Shown here: piece after piece, positions 1,992 through 7,252 of the stretch
Position numbering within the stretch: position 1 is the stretch's first letter
How the letters are laid out: each line of letters begins with the position of its first letter
NCBI GenBank assembly: GCA_003132825.1
Contig: PKYX01000527.1
Coordinates: forward strand, 1,313-18,974
Length of the DNA stretch: 17,662 nucleotides
DNA from: Acidobacteriaceae bacterium
GTDB lineage: Bacteria; Acidobacteriota; Terriglobia; Terriglobales; Acidobacteriaceae
Direction: 5' to 3'
Notes under the pieces: model-generated
Told to the model about the DNA's origin: nothing
What the model saw: the letters and a program-made list of their open reading frames with translations, nothing else
Database searches by the model: none
Made by a program: the position numbers and the translations under genes

Positions 1992-3161
1992 CTACCGGGC
2001 GGGCAGTGCGCTCGCGCTCTCGGTGCCACCGAGCGCGGGAGGTTCGCCGCGATAGACTCGGGAGATGCCGCGCACGAGTCTTCGCAGGGGCAGCGCACCC
2101 TTGGCATCGGCCAAGAAGACCTCTCCGCTGCGAGTGCTGCGGTAGAACCAACGCGTCAGCAAGGCTAGGTGTTCCATGGCTTCGATGGCGCTTCTCCCGC
2201 CGGCCGGCGGGATCCGATCGAGCGCTTCCTGCACTCTCGATTCCATCGACTGCGACTTCGCGTGTTCTCCCGATTGGATCGGAAAGCTGGCCGGGCCCGA
2301 AATCGATCCGCGGGCAATGCGCAGGAATGTGACCGAGCCGGGTGACGCGCTCGGTTGCACCATGACCCCGGCCAGAAGATCGATGCGGCGAACGATCTCG
2401 GGAAGTTGGCTGAGCACGGCGTTGAGCTTCTCGAGGCGGGCGTGCAGCGCGGCTGCATCCTCGAACTTGAGGTCGGCGGAGGCCTGATCGCGCTGGCTCG
2501 AAATTTCCCGCAAGAGAGACTCGCCACCGGTGTCGAAGTAGGCTTGCACGCGGCCTACCTCGGCGCGGTATTCATCATCCCCGCAGCCCTTGAAGCAGGG
2601 CGCCAGGCACATTTTCATTTCTGAGTAGATGCAGCCCGGAAATAGAGGATCGGGATGAAGATCTTCCAGGCAGCGGCGCATTTTGAAAAAGTCGAGCGAG
2701 TCATTGGCGAATTTCTCGGCCGCGAAGCGCGAACGGAAGGGTCCGTAGTATAAGGACCGGCCCTGCCGGCGCCCGAGGCGCGTGGTGACGGAGGCGCGCG
2801 GGTATTGGTTTTCCAGGTGCAGCTTCACCAAAGGCGCAAAACGCAGACGGAGGCGCGCGGCGTAGGTGCCGGGAAAAACGGTTCGCAGGAGTTGATACAG
2901 GAGAAAACCGGATTCGAAATCCGACCCGGTCGCGCTGTATTCGATGGAGCGAACGCGCTCGCGCAGGTTGAGCTTCTTGCTGTGCTCGGTCGGTGGGCCG
3001 AGCAGCCGCTGCAGGCGCCGGCGCAGGTTCGCAGTTTTGCTGACGTAGGGCTCGGCATGGACGTCGTCCCCGCGAAGCAGGAACACGGCGGCCCCGGCCG
3101 GAACTGCCGCGAATACCTCGGCGTCCTGCGTGGGCACGAACTCGAGCCCGGTAGAAAGCAC
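1992..3161 (-). CDS. Short UvrC-like protein (GIY-YIG-type domain, Cys cluster, UVR motif) lacking the C-terminal nuclease
   Basis: UvrC makes both incisions in UvrABC nucleotide excision repair: a GIY-YIG domain cuts 3' and an RNase H-like domain cuts 5'. This 389-residue protein matches only the front half. It has a GIY-YIG-like segment (residues 24-52, AVFLL...YVSKTANLRRRL), a four-cysteine cluster at C164, C177, C185 and C189 in the style of the UvrC Fe-S site, and a UVR/UvrB-contact motif at 231-246 (LKFEDAAALHARLEKL). The RNase H-like and helix-hairpin-helix domains are absent; full UvrC is about 600 residues. Tyr39, Lys42 and the following arginines are kept, but by my alignment the catalytic Glu of the GIY-YIG fold is Leu88, and YVG has become YVS. 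It is therefore a paralogue, comparable in being short to Cho of E. coli, and possibly not a nuclease. The start is GTG 3161, just after an in-frame stop. Confidence 0.85.
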   Translation of the reverse strand: MLSTGLEFVPTQDAEVFAAVPAGAAVFLLRGDDVHAEPYVSKTANLRRRLQRLLGPPTEHSKKLNLRERVRSIEYSATGSDFESGFLLYQLLRTVFPGTYAARLRLRFAPLVKLHLENQYPRASVTTRLGRRQGRSLYYGPFRSRFAAEKFANDSLDFFKMRRCLEDLHPDPLFPGCIYSEMKMCLAPCFKGCGDDEYRAEVGRVQAYFDTGGESLLREISSQRDQASADLKFEDAAALHARLEKLNAVLSQLPEIVRRIDLLAGVMVQPSASPGSVTFLRIARGSISGPASFPIQSGEHAKSQSMESRVQEALDRIPPAGGRSAIEAMEHLALLTRWFYRSTRSGEVFLADAKGALPLRRLVRGISRVYRGEPPALGGTESASALPAR

Positions 3162-3336
3162 GAGGCCATTCTAGTGTGGATTCGGCACCGAGCAGGTAAC
3201 GACTTTCTTCACCGGAGGTGGCAGTGCGGAATTTTTGACGGTAGTCGGGGGCGTTGAGACTCACATCGGCCTGCGCCGACCATAGAAGGTTAGCTGCTAC
3301 AGATCGAAGGTTTGACTTTGGCTGCAGTGCGGATGT

Positions 3337-4251
3337 TCAAGCCACGCCACTCGGGGATCCATTCCGTGAACGCTTCAGGAACTCCCGCTGAGCGTTGACC
3401 TTTTGGCGAAGCTCACGCCACTCGTCCGGGGAGCGATCAGATGGGGCGCTGTACAAGGGACGCGGATTTGCTTTGAGCTCTTCCGGTAGGGTGCCTTCCA
3501 TTTCCATCTTCGCTAAAATTCCGACTAGCCCGGGCAAATTAGACATTTTCTTGACTTCCCCCATCAGCAGCCCTTTAGCTTGCGCGGCCGGCAGCATCTG
3601 CGCAAACTCATTCTGCCGCTCGCCGGGCACGAAATCTAGAGCATTCTCTAAACTTATTCGGTTTTCCTGGACTGCGCTCGCCAGCGTAGCCAGCCGGTGC
3701 CCAATATCATAACCGACGCTCATTGTCCATTTGACCGGCCTTCCGTAGGAGCGCGCTTCTGCTAGTTCCTTCTCATAACGTTCCTTGAAGGCCATGCGTG
3801 CGCCAATCTGATCGCCCTCGCGTAGCAGGGTTCGGCAGGCATTGTAAGCGGCACGTTCCTCTTCGCACCAAACGATACTTTCTTCCTCCATGCCGTCTCC
3901 CTTCGGCATCCTGGCCCACGCCTCCTCAGCTCCGGAACGACCGTCATTTGCCGCTCCCGGTAAAGCGCCCGCAAGTTCACGTAACTCGGCGAGCTTTGGG
4001 AACCATTTCAACTCGTACCGCGCTCTGCGGAAGGCAATTTCCAATTGATTCTGCCGAATATCTGCGAGGCCACCACAATAGATTTCTTGGCGCTGTTCTG
4101 TCAGTGTCTCGCCAAAGGCCTCGGCCAAGATCGTCAACTGATCGTTGATCCAGTCAAGAAGCTCCAAGCCTTTCTCTGAGCCGTTGCTTGACCCTTGCGT
4201 TGACTTCAAGGTTATCGAGTTTTCTTTGCTCGGCTTTGCTAACTCTGACAC
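3337..4251 (-). CDS. Putative replicative-helicase loader-like protein (phage G39P-type N-terminus)
   Basis: No exact family is recognised. The N-terminal part, LLDWINDQLTILAEAFGETLTEQ...IAFRRARYELKWFPKLAELRELAG, has the pattern of phage helicase-loader/inhibitor domains (SPP1 G39P type): a helix, a segment of alternating helix contacts, then 'FP' before a final helix. The rest is charged and helical, with no catalytic motif and no Walker motif. It follows the winged-helix initiator-like gene, the same order as SPP1 genes 38 and 39, which supports a role in helicase recruitment. Start choice is open: TTG 4275 gives 312 residues, but GTG 4251 is preceded by GGAGGT and is preferred (304 residues). 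Either way it overlaps the upstream gene by 98-122 bp in another frame, an unusually long overlap. Base composition is less GC-rich than the flanking genes. Confidence 0.6.
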   Translation of the reverse strand: MSELAKPSKENSITLKSTQGSSNGSEKGLELLDWINDQLTILAEAFGETLTEQRQEIYCGGLADIRQNQLEIAFRRARYELKWFPKLAELRELAGALPGAANDGRSGAEEAWARMPKGDGMEEESIVWCEEERAAYNACRTLLREGDQIGARMAFKERYEKELAEARSYGRPVKWTMSVGYDIGHRLATLASAVQENRISLENALDFVPGERQNEFAQMLPAAQAKGLLMGEVKKMSNLPGLVGILAKMEMEGTLPEELKANPRPLYSAPSDRSPDEWRELRQKVNAQREFLKRSRNGSPSGVA

Positions 4252-5236
4252 TTGACCTCCATTTAACACCTTCAAAGTAAAATCGGTCGATCGCTACATT
4301 CCTACGCCTATCCTCAATTGCTGCGCTTGTAACGAGGGCTGCCACTTTTTCAATTGGGAGCCGTCTATACGTTACCTCGGCCTTAACCGAAGCTTTAACC
4401 GTGGAGATAAGGCTATTCGTAACCGGAAGATCAAGGTTCTTCAGTATTTCCCGGGCATATCGCTCAGCTAGAAAATCCTCAAGAAATTCGTGGTTCTCTA
4501 TGCCCCTACGTTCAGCGAGCCTGGCTTCCGTCACGATATCCTGCACTATTCCGTCCATTGATAATTTCGTTTGCCTTCTTTTTTCCTCAACCGCAGCAAT
4601 TGCGTCGCTGATAGACGAATCTGGAAGTCTCAGAATCGTCATGATGCGTTGCGCAGATCCCTTTATCTCAAGTCTTTCTTCTTCAGAAAACTTATTAAAT
4701 AAGTCTTGTTCTATAGTCTTGTTCAGTAAGTCTTGTTCTTCCTTATATGGGCCGCCAACAGTGTCGCGACTCCGCGACGCTGTAGTCGCCTCGCGCGACA
4801 CTTGTGACGGCATACGCGACGGTGATGACGGCAAAGGCGACGCCGATGTCGCTTCTGCGACACTGATGTCGCGTATAGAGAATTCTTCTTCCTCGATTCG
4901 GTCGAAAAGAGGAATAGCGGCCATCTTCGCGCGCGGTGGCACCGGTACAATGAAATACATTTTCAACGTCGAGGTTTGCACGATCCGAATCAGCTTATGA
5001 TCCTCTAGAACCTTCAGCGATCGCTGGACGGTTCGCTGAGAAACATTCAACACTTCGGCTATCTTCGCTGTACCTACCCATGTGGAACGTGTATGACAGT
5101 TAGCATAACGCTCAAGCGCGTGGTACACGGCAATGTCCACAGGCTGCATTTCCCTGGCGTAGTGATCAATGAAGCTGTTGTCAGTGACGTAATAATTTTC
5201 TCTTCGACCGCTGCGTACAATTTCTCTCATTGGCAT
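4154..5236 (-). CDS. Winged-helix replication-initiator-like protein (HTH_36 / replisome-organizer type)
   Basis: This 360-residue protein starts with DNSFIDHYAREMQPVDIAVYHALERYAN, then WVGTAKIAEVLNVSQRTVQRSLKVLEDHKLIRI (about 53-85). That is a winged helix typical of phage replisome organizers and plasmid Rep-type proteins (HTH_36-like). A Ser/Ala/Arg/Glu-rich linker follows (about 120-190), then a helical, charged C-terminal region without motifs known to me. The DNA of the linker carries repeat clusters described separately, a layout like the lambda O gene with its internal origin. The first ATG is 5236, with GGAGGAGG 12 bases upstream; the second ATG at 5230 has GAGG at six bases and may be the true start. 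The 3' end overlaps the helicase-loader-like gene. It could alternatively be a transcription regulator of the element; the long C-terminal region and the neighbour favour replication. Confidence 0.7.
   Translation of the reverse strand: MPMREIVRSGRRENYYVTDNSFIDHYAREMQPVDIAVYHALERYANCHTRSTWVGTAKIAEVLNVSQRTVQRSLKVLEDHKLIRIVQTSTLKMYFIVPVPPRAKMAAIPLFDRIEEEEFSIRDISVAEATSASPLPSSPSRMPSQVSREATTASRSRDTVGGPYKEEQDLLNKTIEQDLFNKFSEEERLEIKGSAQRIMTILRLPDSSISDAIAAVEEKRRQTKLSMDGIVQDIVTEARLAERRGIENHEFLEDFLAERYAREILKNLDLPVTNSLISTVKASVKAEVTYRRLPIEKVAALVTSAAIEDRRRNVAIDRFYFEGVKWRSSVRVSKAEQRKLDNLEVNARVKQRLRERLGAS
4702..4738. repeat. Three perfect 10-bp repeats in an AT-rich tract (possible DNA-unwinding element)
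   Basis: AGTCTTGTTC occurs exactly at 4702-4711, 4715-4724 and 4729-4738, a period of 13 and 14 bp, inside an AT-rich stretch (about 4685-4748) of the initiator-like gene. In the coding strand the outer copies read GAA CAA GAC while the middle copy is shifted (G AAC AAG ACT). The repetition is therefore at the DNA level and not only in the protein (EQDLLNKTIEQDLFNK). Spacing and composition resemble 13-mer unwinding elements of bacterial and phage origins. Function is inferred. Confidence 0.7.
4763..4872. repeat. Dense GCGAC/GTCGC motif cluster (possible iterons of an internal origin)
   Basis: The pentamer GCGAC or its complement GTCGC appears ten times here: 4763, 4766, 4774, 4785, 4795, 4816, 4837, 4848, 4857 and 4868. 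It includes the palindrome GTCGCGAC (4763-4770) and the inverted repeat GCGACA-CTGA-TGTCGC (4857-4872). GATGTCGC is repeated at 4845 and 4865. Copies occur on both strands and in several codon frames (for example GTG TCG CGC, GAG GCG ACT and AGT CGC GAC), so codon bias alone does not explain them. Binding sites for the encoded winged-helix protein are the natural guess. The spacing is irregular, which weakens the iteron reading. Confidence 0.55.
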
Positions 5237-5291
5237 CCTCGACTAACGCCTCCTCCGAAAGTAAACCGATAATGGTCGGGGTTTGGACGGT

Positions 5292-5309
5292 AAAAAACCG
5301 GTGCCCGGT
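5292..5309 (-). terminator. Short intrinsic-terminator-like hairpin after the zinc-ribbon gene
   Basis: On the minus strand, ACCGG-GCA-CCGGT is followed directly by further T residues (T run complementary to 5292-5297). The stem is only five base pairs but almost all GC. It lies between the stop of the cysteine-rich gene (5336) and the start of the initiator-like gene (5236), so it could end the upstream transcript or attenuate read-through into the initiator. Confidence 0.45.
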
Positions 5310-5335
5310 AAACCTGAAGCTTTCCTTTAATCCTG

Positions 5336-5575
5336 CTACAGCGCCTCCCTTCCTGCGTTTGTGTGGGTAGGACAGCACTCGTCATAGCAAATGCATAAGG
5401 CGCAGACCAAAGAGTTGCACACCGCACATTGAAAAGCAGATCCTCTGAGCGAAGTTCCGCACGAGTTGCAGCAAGCGGTGTCGGTGTAGGTTCGCCGCGC
5501 ATTTATCGCTCGGCGCGCTTCTTGGTCTTCCCTGTCTTCATCATCCCAATAGAACATTTCGCCCGTGGTTGCCAT
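5336..5575 (-). CDS. Small cysteine-rich zinc-ribbon-like protein (79 aa)
   Basis: I do not recognise a named family. The acidic N-terminus (MFYWDDEDREDQEARRAINARR, residues 7-28) is followed by a cysteine-rich half with pairs CCxxCG, CxxC, CxxC and CYDECCPTH. Ten cysteines and a histidine fall in about 38 residues, enough for two zinc sites of treble-clef or zinc-ribbon type. The start ATG 5575 has GGAG nine bases upstream. It sits between the DUF1376-like ORF and the initiator-like gene on the same strand, with 40 bp to the former, and is likely part of the same mobile module. A protein- or DNA-binding accessory role is plausible but unproven; no enzymatic motif is visible. Confidence 0.65.
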   Translation of the reverse strand: MATTGEMFYWDDEDREDQEARRAINARRTYTDTACCNSCGTSLRGSAFQCAVCNSLVCALCICYDECCPTHTNAGREAL

Positions 5576-5615
5576 CTTGTGTTTCTCCAGTTTGACTCTG
5601 GGGTTGTCCCAACCA

Positions 5616-5939
5616 TTATTTTCTCAGGGGCGAACATATAGCGAATATATCACTACTTACCCAGCAGTAACGGAGACTGCGACGTTCAGCGCGGACTCTG
5701 GAATAGCAGAGTGCCGACGGCAAATGAAAGAATATCGCTCCTAGGCGCCACAACTGCCCGTCGTCCAGCAAATACCCCGGGCGCTCAAAAATCCAAGAAG
5801 CAAATAGAAGATTCAAGTACCAAGCCTGGTGGTAGTCCTTCGAGGCGCGGTAACCGACATCACCGGCCAAACGGTGAATGTAGAAAGGAAACCACTGCAA
5901 TAGTTGATTTCGTCCGGAACTTGACACAGAAAATGGCAT
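5616..5939 (-). CDS. DUF1376-like phage replication-associated ORF, probably truncated
   Basis: The 107-residue translation contains LLQWFPFYIHRLAGDVGYRASKDYHQAWYLNLLFASWIFERPGYLLDDGQLWRLG. This fits the DUF1376-type pattern: an aromatic 'FPFYxxD' start, a long helix ending in YxxLL, a short 'W' segment, then 'LxDDxxLWRL'. Such domains are common at the N-terminus of phage replication-organizer proteins. After residue 68 the sequence no longer follows the pattern, and a stop comes soon after, so the gene appears broken or frameshifted. The same frame stays open upstream to a stop near 6155 but offers no ATG, GTG or TTG, so ATG 5939 is the only usual start; no clear Shine-Dalgarno precedes it. 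It could be a pseudogene remnant of a longer protein. Confidence 0.45.
   Translation of the reverse strand: MPFSVSSSGRNQLLQWFPFYIHRLAGDVGYRASKDYHQAWYLNLLFASWIFERPGYLLDDGQLWRLGAIFFHLPSALCYSRVRAERRSLRYCWVSSDIFAICSPLRK
5630..5650. repeat. Tandem 10-bp near-identical repeats (possible operator)
   Basis: GCGAACATAT (5630-5639) and GCGAATATAT (5641-5650) differ at one base and are 11 bp apart, about one helical turn. They lie 55-75 bp upstream of the cysteine-rich gene, in the tail of the DUF1376-like ORF. A regulator site is possible; no matching promoter could be assigned with confidence. Confidence 0.35.
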
Positions 5940-6208
5940 TGAGTCGCGCTGTAAACTTTGCCCGAGGAAGGGCTTCAGCGCAAGCGAGAAGTCCCACTTG
6001 CCTGTGTAGATGTTGTGGAGATGTGGTTTTGGTTGTGGAGAGGAGAGGAAAACAGGGGGAGAGCTCGGACGAGTTGGCGCGAGGACGAGAGATTGATGCG
6101 AAGCAGGCAGTGAAGCAGGCGGTAAGATTGGGGCGAAGAGAATGCTAGTTCGCTGCTAACGAAATTGGCGATTGTCTGATTTTGAAATTCGGCTTACTAT
6201 CCGACCAG
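5940..6208. other. Gene-free stretch between the replication module and ruvB
   Basis: The two modules are divergent here. The plus strand from about 6010 to 6145 is purine-rich (GGAGAGGAGAGG-type runs) and contains AAGCAGGC twice (6100 and 6113). A TTGACA hexamer reads on the plus strand at 5921-5926 (inside the start of the minus-strand ORF), but no -10 stands at a proper distance. I see no RNA gene. ORFs on either strand through it have no family resemblance. Confidence 0.4.
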
Positions 6209-7252
6209 ATGGCTACAGCGCGAAACATTCCGGATATAAAGCAACGGCTGGTGTCAGCGGTGCCCGTCGAGGATGACTCTTCCTTTGAATTGAAGCTACG
6301 CCCGCAGCGCCTGGTGGAGTTTATCGGGCAAGCCAAAGTGAAAGAGAATCTGGCGGTGGCCATTGAGGCGGCTCGGTCGCGCGGCGAAGCGCTCGATCAT
6401 GTGCTGCTCTATGGACCTCCCGGGCTCGGCAAGACTACACTCGCGACCATCATCGCCAATGAACTCGGTGTGCCCTTCCAACAGACTTCGGGGCCGACAA
6501 TGCAGATCAAAGGCGACCTCACCGCGATCCTGACCAACCTCCGCGACCGCCAGGTGCTGTTTATTGACGAGGTACACCGGCTGCAGCCGGTGCTCGAGGA
6601 GCTTTTGTATTCGGCACTCGAGGACTACAAGCTGGACATCATTATTGGGCAGGGCCCCTCGGCGCGGACCCATACCATGGAGGTGAAGCCGTTTACCTTT
6701 ATCGGTGCCACCACAAGGGCGGGGTTGCTTTCTTCTCCCTTGCGATCCAGATTCGGCATCGTGCTGCGGCTGGAGTTCTACAGCCACGAGGACCTGAGGA
6801 TCATTGTGGAAAGGTCGGCCGAGATTCTGGCGGTCGAGATCGACCGGGCCGGAGCACTCGAGATCGCGAGCCGCTCCCGGGGCACGCCGCGGATCGCCAA
6901 CCGTCTCCTGCGCCGGGTGCGCGACTATGCGCAGGTGCGGGGAGCAGGAAAGATCGACCTGCCGACGGCGCAGGCGGCTCTGCAGATGCTCGAGGTCGAC
7001 CGCCACGGCTTTGACGAAGTGGACCGCAAGCTGCTGCTGACCATCATCGAGAAGTATCAGGGCGGTCCGGTGGGTGTGAGCACGCTGGCGGCAGCGCTGG
7101 CCGAAGAACCGGACGCGATTGAAGAGATCTACGAGCCGTTCTTAATCCAGATCGGATTCTTGAACCGGACACCGCGCGGCCGCGTGGCCACGCAGTTGGC
7201 CTACGAGCATTTTGGCATCGCACCCAATCGAAGGCAGAGCTCTTTGTTCTAA
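6209..7252 (+). CDS. ruvB: Holliday junction branch-migration ATPase RuvB
   Basis: RuvB hexamers drive branch migration of Holliday junctions together with RuvA in recombinational repair. The 347-residue protein shows the full family set: [12 protein letters not shown] (30-41), Walker A GPPGLGKT (69-76), Walker [10 protein letters not shown] (117-125), the sensor segment FIGATTRAG (164-172), the arginine finger region SPLRSRFG (176-183), and the C-terminal winged helix ending [20 protein letters not shown]. The start was set at ATG 6209 because it gives the usual N-terminus; TTG 6182 in frame is an alternative. Neither has a clear Shine-Dalgarno. ruvA follows 82 bp downstream. Confidence 0.97.

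Follow-up and report, generated by a model that had tools for sequence, protein, structure and literature searches.

A probable lambda-type replication origin inside a winged-helix initiator gene of an Acidobacteriaceae bacterium

The window analyzed here is a stretch of 17,662 nt from an Acidobacteriaceae bacterium (Acidobacteriota; assembly GCA_003132825.1, contig PKYX01000527.1, forward-strand positions 1,313-18,974). Within it, positions 4691-4872 probably form a lambda-O-type replication origin, with iterons and an unwinding element located inside the gene of their own winged-helix initiator. In the proposed mechanism, winged-helix dimers would bind five palindromic iterons, each two turns of the helix from the next and on the same side of the DNA, and, by analogy with lambda, the initiator-iteron complex would strain the adjoining tract of 29% GC until it melts. 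The initiator, or some further factor, would keep the strand with the tandem GAACAAGACT from re-pairing, and the protein encoded by the overlapping gene downstream may deliver the host DnaB helicase. The cassette is presumably of phage descent; however, it is chromosomal, no other phage gene was recognized around it, and we do not claim that it fires at present. The features are collected in Table 1.

Table 1. Features of the putative origin and its surroundings, in window coordinates
Feature	Position	Strand	Basis
Candidate lambda-P-like helicase loader gene, overlapping and downstream, 312 aa, phrog_6028	3337..4275	-	profile, fold match
Initiator-like gene, 360 aa	4154..5236	-	Pfam HTH_36, phrog_8102, homologues, AlphaFold model
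AT-rich putative unwinding element, 29% GC	4691..4745	-	base composition
Repeat GAACAAGACT, third copy, codes for start of C-terminal helix	4702..4711	-	sequence, AlphaFold
Repeat GAACAAGACT, second copy, different codon frame	4715..4724	-	sequence
Disordered linker, residues 104-173, pLDDT < 50	4718..4927	-	AlphaFold
Repeat GAACAAGACT, first copy	4729..4738	-	sequence
TATAAGGAAGAACAAGAC block, opens second repeat set, DNA-conserved	4730..4747	-	homologue and IMG/VR comparison
Iteron array, five GCGAC-N6-GTCGC units at 20/21 bp and a degenerate sixth	4752..4872	-	sequence, self-match, shuffles
Winged-helix domain (approximately residues 20-96), presumed to read the iterons	4949..5179	-	Pfam, AlphaFold
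Upstream footprint TCCACA-20 bp-TCCACA-11 bp-TACACA, DnaA-box-like cores	6002..6041	-	common to window, L004 and L014

The initiator-like gene and its two repeat sets

According to Pfam and the AlphaFold model, the initiator has a winged-helix N-terminus followed by a disordered linker and a helical C-terminus, whose helix starts at residue 175. The protein matched Pfam HTH_36 (5.7e-9) and phrog_8102, a replication initiation family (7e-8), and 274 homologous proteins were found at E<=1e-3, with a top identity of 81% among the listed homologues when the window's own copy was set aside. An alignment-based search of genome contigs with the initiator returned one locus. The score of the initiator with PF04492 (Phage_rep_O) was 16.6 bits, under the curated cut-off of 28.7, which leaves it outside that family. 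The initiator had no match in IMG/VR by alignment, or by tblastn in the phage or the plasmid collection, and Foldseek found only generic winged helices with its model (best E 5.7e-3). Identity as an iteron plasmid Rep was rejected, since no plasmid Rep family was present among its Pfam matches down to E 1 and the plasmid collection gave no tblastn match.

The initial annotation had reported ten GCGAC or GTCGC words in both orientations. All ten are present within 4763-4872, each as one half of the palindrome GCGAC-N6-GTCGC. On the gene strand, five tandem units span 4774-4872 (4857-4872, 4837-4852, 4816-4831, 4795-4810 and 4774-4789), with unit-to-unit spacings of 20, 21, 21 and 21 bp: three are perfect palindromes, two have one degenerate arm, and a degenerate sixth unit is found at 4752-4767. 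The best self-match period of the array is 21, and 21 bp equal two helical turns and seven codons. The GC content of 4751-4872 is 65%. Codons were shuffled with the protein kept, as had been proposed, using gene-wide permutation, permutation inside the linker, or window codon usage (5000 shuffles each); ten half-sites were reached in 0, 1, and 0 of 5000, respectively. The palindromic 21-bp iterons exceed the codon-shuffled expectation.

Three exact 10-mers in an AT-rich tract had also been described, and they were found as reported: AGTCTTGTTC on the + strand, at 13/14-bp spacing, starting at codons 167, 171, and 176. The tract is located on the C-terminal side of the iterons. The claim that copies fall in different codon frames is correct for both sets, with three frames for the GCGAC words and two for the 10-mers. 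The claim that both sets lie in the linker was right for the GCGAC set (codons 122-157, wholly inside the disordered region of the AlphaFold model) and for the first 10-mer; however, the second is at the linker edge and the third falls where the C-terminal helix begins. Some 10-mer in three copies was obtained in 3, 326, and 3 of 5000 shuffles with the gene-wide, within-linker and window-usage nulls. Permutation within the linker is the strictest null and retains the unusual codons of the linker; against this null, the 10-mers taken by themselves are no more than weakly unusual, so that the homologues decide on the second repeat set. BLAST of the 66-nt tract against phages and plasmids gave nothing better than an E of 2. 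DnaA was considered as a reader of the tract and set aside as an idea only: the complement contains 5'-TTGT-3', described as a DnaA single-strand motif (PMC10797057), and a 4-mer is weak evidence.

Conservation of the repeats in homologues and viral sequences

Homologue DNA with the same linker comes from L004 (a named Acidobacteriaceae MAG), L005/L014 (genome G636) and L008/L017 (G555). The three DNA homologues (L004, L014 and L017) all retain repeats 5' of a GAACAA block, with period 21 in L004 and L017 and a weaker 22/21 in L014; none has the linker and lacks the repeats. All three also keep the AAGGAAGAACAA block and further CAAGA-like copies downstream, with four GAACAA copies in L014, four in L004 and one in L017. 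Across the four homologous genes including the window (six pairs, which are not independent), identical residues used the same codon in 50/55 cases in the repeat block, compared with 218/552 outside the linker and 32/73 in the rest of the linker, and the best of 210 other 20-residue windows reached 21/30. These figures indicate constraint at the DNA level. The iterons behave otherwise: L017 (8640-8780) has GTGCC-N6-GGCAC at period 21, with the same geometry and apparently another specificity, while degenerate GCGAC words persist in L004 at period 21. Judged from these sequences, iteron sequence differs between homologues and geometry stays. L015 and L016, which have only the C-terminal domain in common with the window, have another N-terminus and no AACAAGAC. 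Neither the codon shuffles nor the homologues, both put forward as possible refutations, spoke against an origin inside the initiator-like gene, and the sequence comparisons support it.

The unwinding repeat was also searched as a pattern in IMG/VR. The 18-mer WATAAGGAAGAACAARAC was found in 15 stretches, two in initiator genes (L023 and L032) and 13 others. The pattern GAACAAGACN{4,5}GAACAAGAC was found in six stretches: three are in initiator genes (L032, L039 and L041), each with an iteron array immediately upstream of the motif, two (L040 and L042) are one non-initiator gene found twice, and in L038 the motif is not covered by any ORF of 100 aa. The pattern AACAAGACN{5,6}AACAAGAC gave 69 stretches, and phrog_270 was present in 10 of the 50 ORFs scanned (L023, L032, L039, L041, L055, L056, L061, L063, L085, and L103) and absent from 40. 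A scrambled pattern gave 73 stretches and 41 scanned ORFs, with no replication family among the 25 listed of 86 families; the listed families of this control have two members each, which allows phrog_270 at most two of 41, and Fisher's test of 10/50 against zero to two of 41 gives 0.0016 to 0.03. In nine of the ten phrog_270 initiators, upstream repeats that differ per locus were seen by eye, and L063 is unclear. L087 resembles these initiators, with a differing array and tandem AACAAGAC, and has no family match; L102 ends at a contig edge.

An exact 13/14-bp spacing rule is weakened by a control with the AACAAGAC pair at 15/16 bp, which returned at least 120 stretches; of 43 ORFs scanned among the 80 listed, four matched phrog_270, five phrog_186 and four phrog_428. 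This spacing also marks initiators, so the 13/14 spacing is not essential and the word counts more than the spacing. When the protein family was taken as the starting point, 13 phrog_270 loci were found across 199 genomes of the phylum, without any AACAAGAC pair (5/13 read in the wrong frame), and thus the motif is not general to the phrog_270 family. By tblastn against phages, L061 and L055 matched three and two records; the three of these that were examined, L192, L193 and L194, have no AACAAGAC pair. Other initiator-like genes of Acidobacteriota, L184 and L190, have repetitive linkers and no AACAAGAC pair.

Two explanations of the repeats other than an origin can be weighed here. The second set could be a by-product of protein constraint, if KEEQDLLNKT were a short linear motif recognized by a partner protein (DnaB or SSB, for example); five residues of KEEQDLLNKTIEQ (K165, E167, Q168, N172 and Q177) are indeed invariant across 39 aligned proteins in an otherwise variable linker. 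However, the identical 8-mer AACAAGAC occurs in each of the three frames in the phrog_270 initiators and codes there for EQD, NKT or TR, the codon choice is nearly fixed as well, and a protein motif leaves the palindromic array unexplained, which makes this explanation highly improbable. Arrays of palindromes are a usual feature of repressor operators and of centromeres as well, and the iterons might be operator or partition sites; this we hold to be extremely unlikely, given that an array is directly upstream of an AT-rich tandem in the three homologues and, by eye, in nine of ten motif-selected initiators, and that an operator needs no such neighbor. On the origin reading, the sequences indicate that the iterons change from one initiator to another, but the unwinding repeat is retained, near constant, in all reading frames. 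A nearly constant opening repeat beside unrelated iterons would point to a common reader, and the tandem offers a simple way to look for phage origins in DNA. L039, L041, L055, L056, L061, L085, L087, L103, L023, and L032 are a ready set for such pattern-based finding.

Downstream gene and chromosomal setting

Lambda P was the best fold match of the downstream gene, but a weak one; phrog_6028 is a family of unknown function, and a sequence search of PDB with the downstream family gave no match. A role of the product as helicase loader is only weakly suggested by these predictions. The neighbors in the window are a UVR-motif (uvrC-like) protein, ruvB, ruvA, mnmE, an R3H (jag-like) protein, yidC, yidD, and rnpA. 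No phage structural or integration genes were found among the neighbors tested, nor by eye among the other ORFs of the window, and no att-like direct repeats flank the pair; a prophage was not recognized by these signs.

The neighborhood was examined in six of the ten family genomes with a match, with some neighbor genes named by eye, and the pair adjoins replication genes in five of the six loci: dnaA-dnaN in three genomes, dnaB in one, and ruvB in the window. In G636 (L014) the pair follows dnaA-dnaN and in L004 it follows dnaB, while no replication gene was seen beside the pair in G555. G715 and G784, which belong to one genus, have a variant pair between dnaN and mscL, with another N-terminus and no AACAAGAC, and with the C-terminus and the downstream gene in common with the window. 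In G000 and G028, mscL follows dnaN (by eye) without the pair, so G715 and G784 seem to owe their order to an insertion. In G555 (C20, integrase confirmed with Pfam) and G577, genes related to the downstream gene lie near integrases, and therefore mobile forms exist. The genomes are mostly drafts, and any single contig could be chimeric. In L014, L015, and L016, three draft Acidobacteriota genomes, the initiator-loader pair is directly 3' of dnaA-dnaN.

The words of the upstream footprint are DnaA-box-like rather than proven boxes: no 9/9 TTWTNCACA was found in the window, and the upstream words reach at most seven of nine. Upstream of the pair, a single perfect TTTTACACA is present in L015 and in L016. 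A DnaA-type chromosomal oriC was rejected, as there is no DnaA-box cluster at the site; GC skew gave no usable origin signal, and Rfam had no match in 3000-6300 at the gathering threshold. Between footprint and initiator, a 79-aa cysteine-rich ORF (5336-5575, - strand) has a weak NCBIfam bacteriocin match below cut-off.

The site could be a once-active phage or plasmid origin that is now a dead chromosomal remnant, a reading compatible with the lambda-O type and directed against a present role. The lack of an integrase among the window ORFs (by eye), the lack of flanking direct repeats and the sporadic occurrence of the initiator (10/398 family genomes at E<=1e-8) favor it; however, the reading frames are open, the iterons are ordered, the repeat block is conserved at the DNA level and the upstream footprint is common to three different chromosomal sites. 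We rate a dead remnant as rather unlikely. Induction of a cryptic lambda fragment in the chromosome is described as causing replicative killing (PMC3349717), which suggests that an intact chromosomal cassette is silenced, tolerated at its site, or useful. Alternatively, the iterons could be a decoy that titrates the initiator of an infecting phage: an ectopic multicopy lambda origin arrests lambda (PMC4488673) and plasmid iterons with oop silence it (PMC3349717). Against this, multicopy plasmids in which gene O/ori is intact and oop is missing did not reduce plating, according to the same source (PMC3349717), and a decoy could do without an unwinding tract, a downstream gene and an intact initiator. 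The searches made with the protein and with the unwinding repeat brought up no phage that has these iterons. A decoy is very unlikely. Returning to the origin, a bolder reading holds both that a phage cassette, reduced to a loader and the initiator with its origin, was acquired by Acidobacteriota chromosomes next to replication genes and, under DnaA-box-like control, serves as a second, host-timed origin, and that the constant opening word of phages, ACAA(AA)GAC, has a common reader while the iterons diversify. We consider this combination improbable; a bare cassette beside dnaA-dnaN or dnaB makes bacterial adoption of phage origins testable.

Relation to known origins

The comparison with lambda made by the initial annotation holds, as the middle part of lambda gene O contains four iterons followed by an AT-rich tract of repeats. 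For 13 cultured phages, the AT-richest stretch was compared together with the flank upstream of it. Behind the iterons, lambda has the tandem ACAAAAGAC-N6-ACAAAAGAA; MG40 (P22-like), mEp213 (HK97-like) and Erwinia phage vB_EhrS_49 have ACAAAAGAC twice at 14 bp, and a Mannheimia phage has ACAAAAGAA twice, so that five of the 13 carry a tandem. PAJU2 is partial, the tract of phiEt88 fell outside the comparison, and no pair was seen in mEp237, Vibrio K71, BgVeeders33, AsXd-1, the Moorella phage and LZ35. The AACAAGAC pair is in none of the 13. In IMG/VR, ACAAAAGACN{5,6}ACAAAAGAC was found in at least 120 stretches, and among the 80 listed an O-like family was present in 15 of 17 non-redundant ORFs. 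We infer from their common frame, ACAA(AA)GAC, that AACAAGAC and ACAAAAGAC may be one element. The openly accessible literature searched gave no report of AACAAGAC together with an iteron, published matches to AACAAGAC with phage and origin of replication were off-topic by title or abstract, and ACAAAAGAC with lambda and AT-rich was in print only within a primer in the literature searched.

The window resembles the lambda ori in gene O, as well as P22- and HK97-like origins, in that an AT-rich tandem follows the iterons toward the C-terminal end, all of it intragenic, and in a gene directly downstream (loader or helicase in the phages, candidate loader in the window). Of the lambda-O-type layout, the following parts are found: a winged-helix N-terminus, a disordered linker and a separate C-terminal domain, repeated palindromic iterons in the linker-coding region, and a repeat tract of 29% GC on their C-terminal side. 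It differs from lambda in its unrelated iterons (GCGAC-N6-GTCGC), a tandem of AACAAGAC instead of ACAAAAGAC, an initiator under the Phage_rep_O cut-off and the lack of any other recognized phage gene around the pair. In Stx phages, the AT-rich tract is dispensable for O-iteron binding and O binds A/T-rich single strands (PMC7466680), which fits the proposed opening and strand-holding step. SPP1 oriL (gene 38, loader gp39 and helicase gp40) likewise has intragenic repeats, an AT-rich element and a separate loader (PMC6316719); however, no helicase gene was recognized next to the window pair. The iteron plasmids RK2 and F also combine iterons with repeats in an AT-rich element, which are 13-mers in RK2 (PMC10797057), whereas the putative origin in the window is intragenic, with palindromic iterons and no plasmid Rep domain.

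Repeats of phages and plasmids are described as differing between replicons in a review (PMC10797057), and lambda, P22 and L as having different iterons within their initiator genes (PMC8022706); the portions of both sources covered here make no mention of a common second repeat in phage origins. Intragenic origins are already known in lambdoid phages and SPP1, and the putative origin in the window is a fresh example of this known plan. The bare cassette next to replication genes goes further than that plan, as does the recurring unwinding word with unrelated iterons, which, as far as the sequences compared indicate, looks new.
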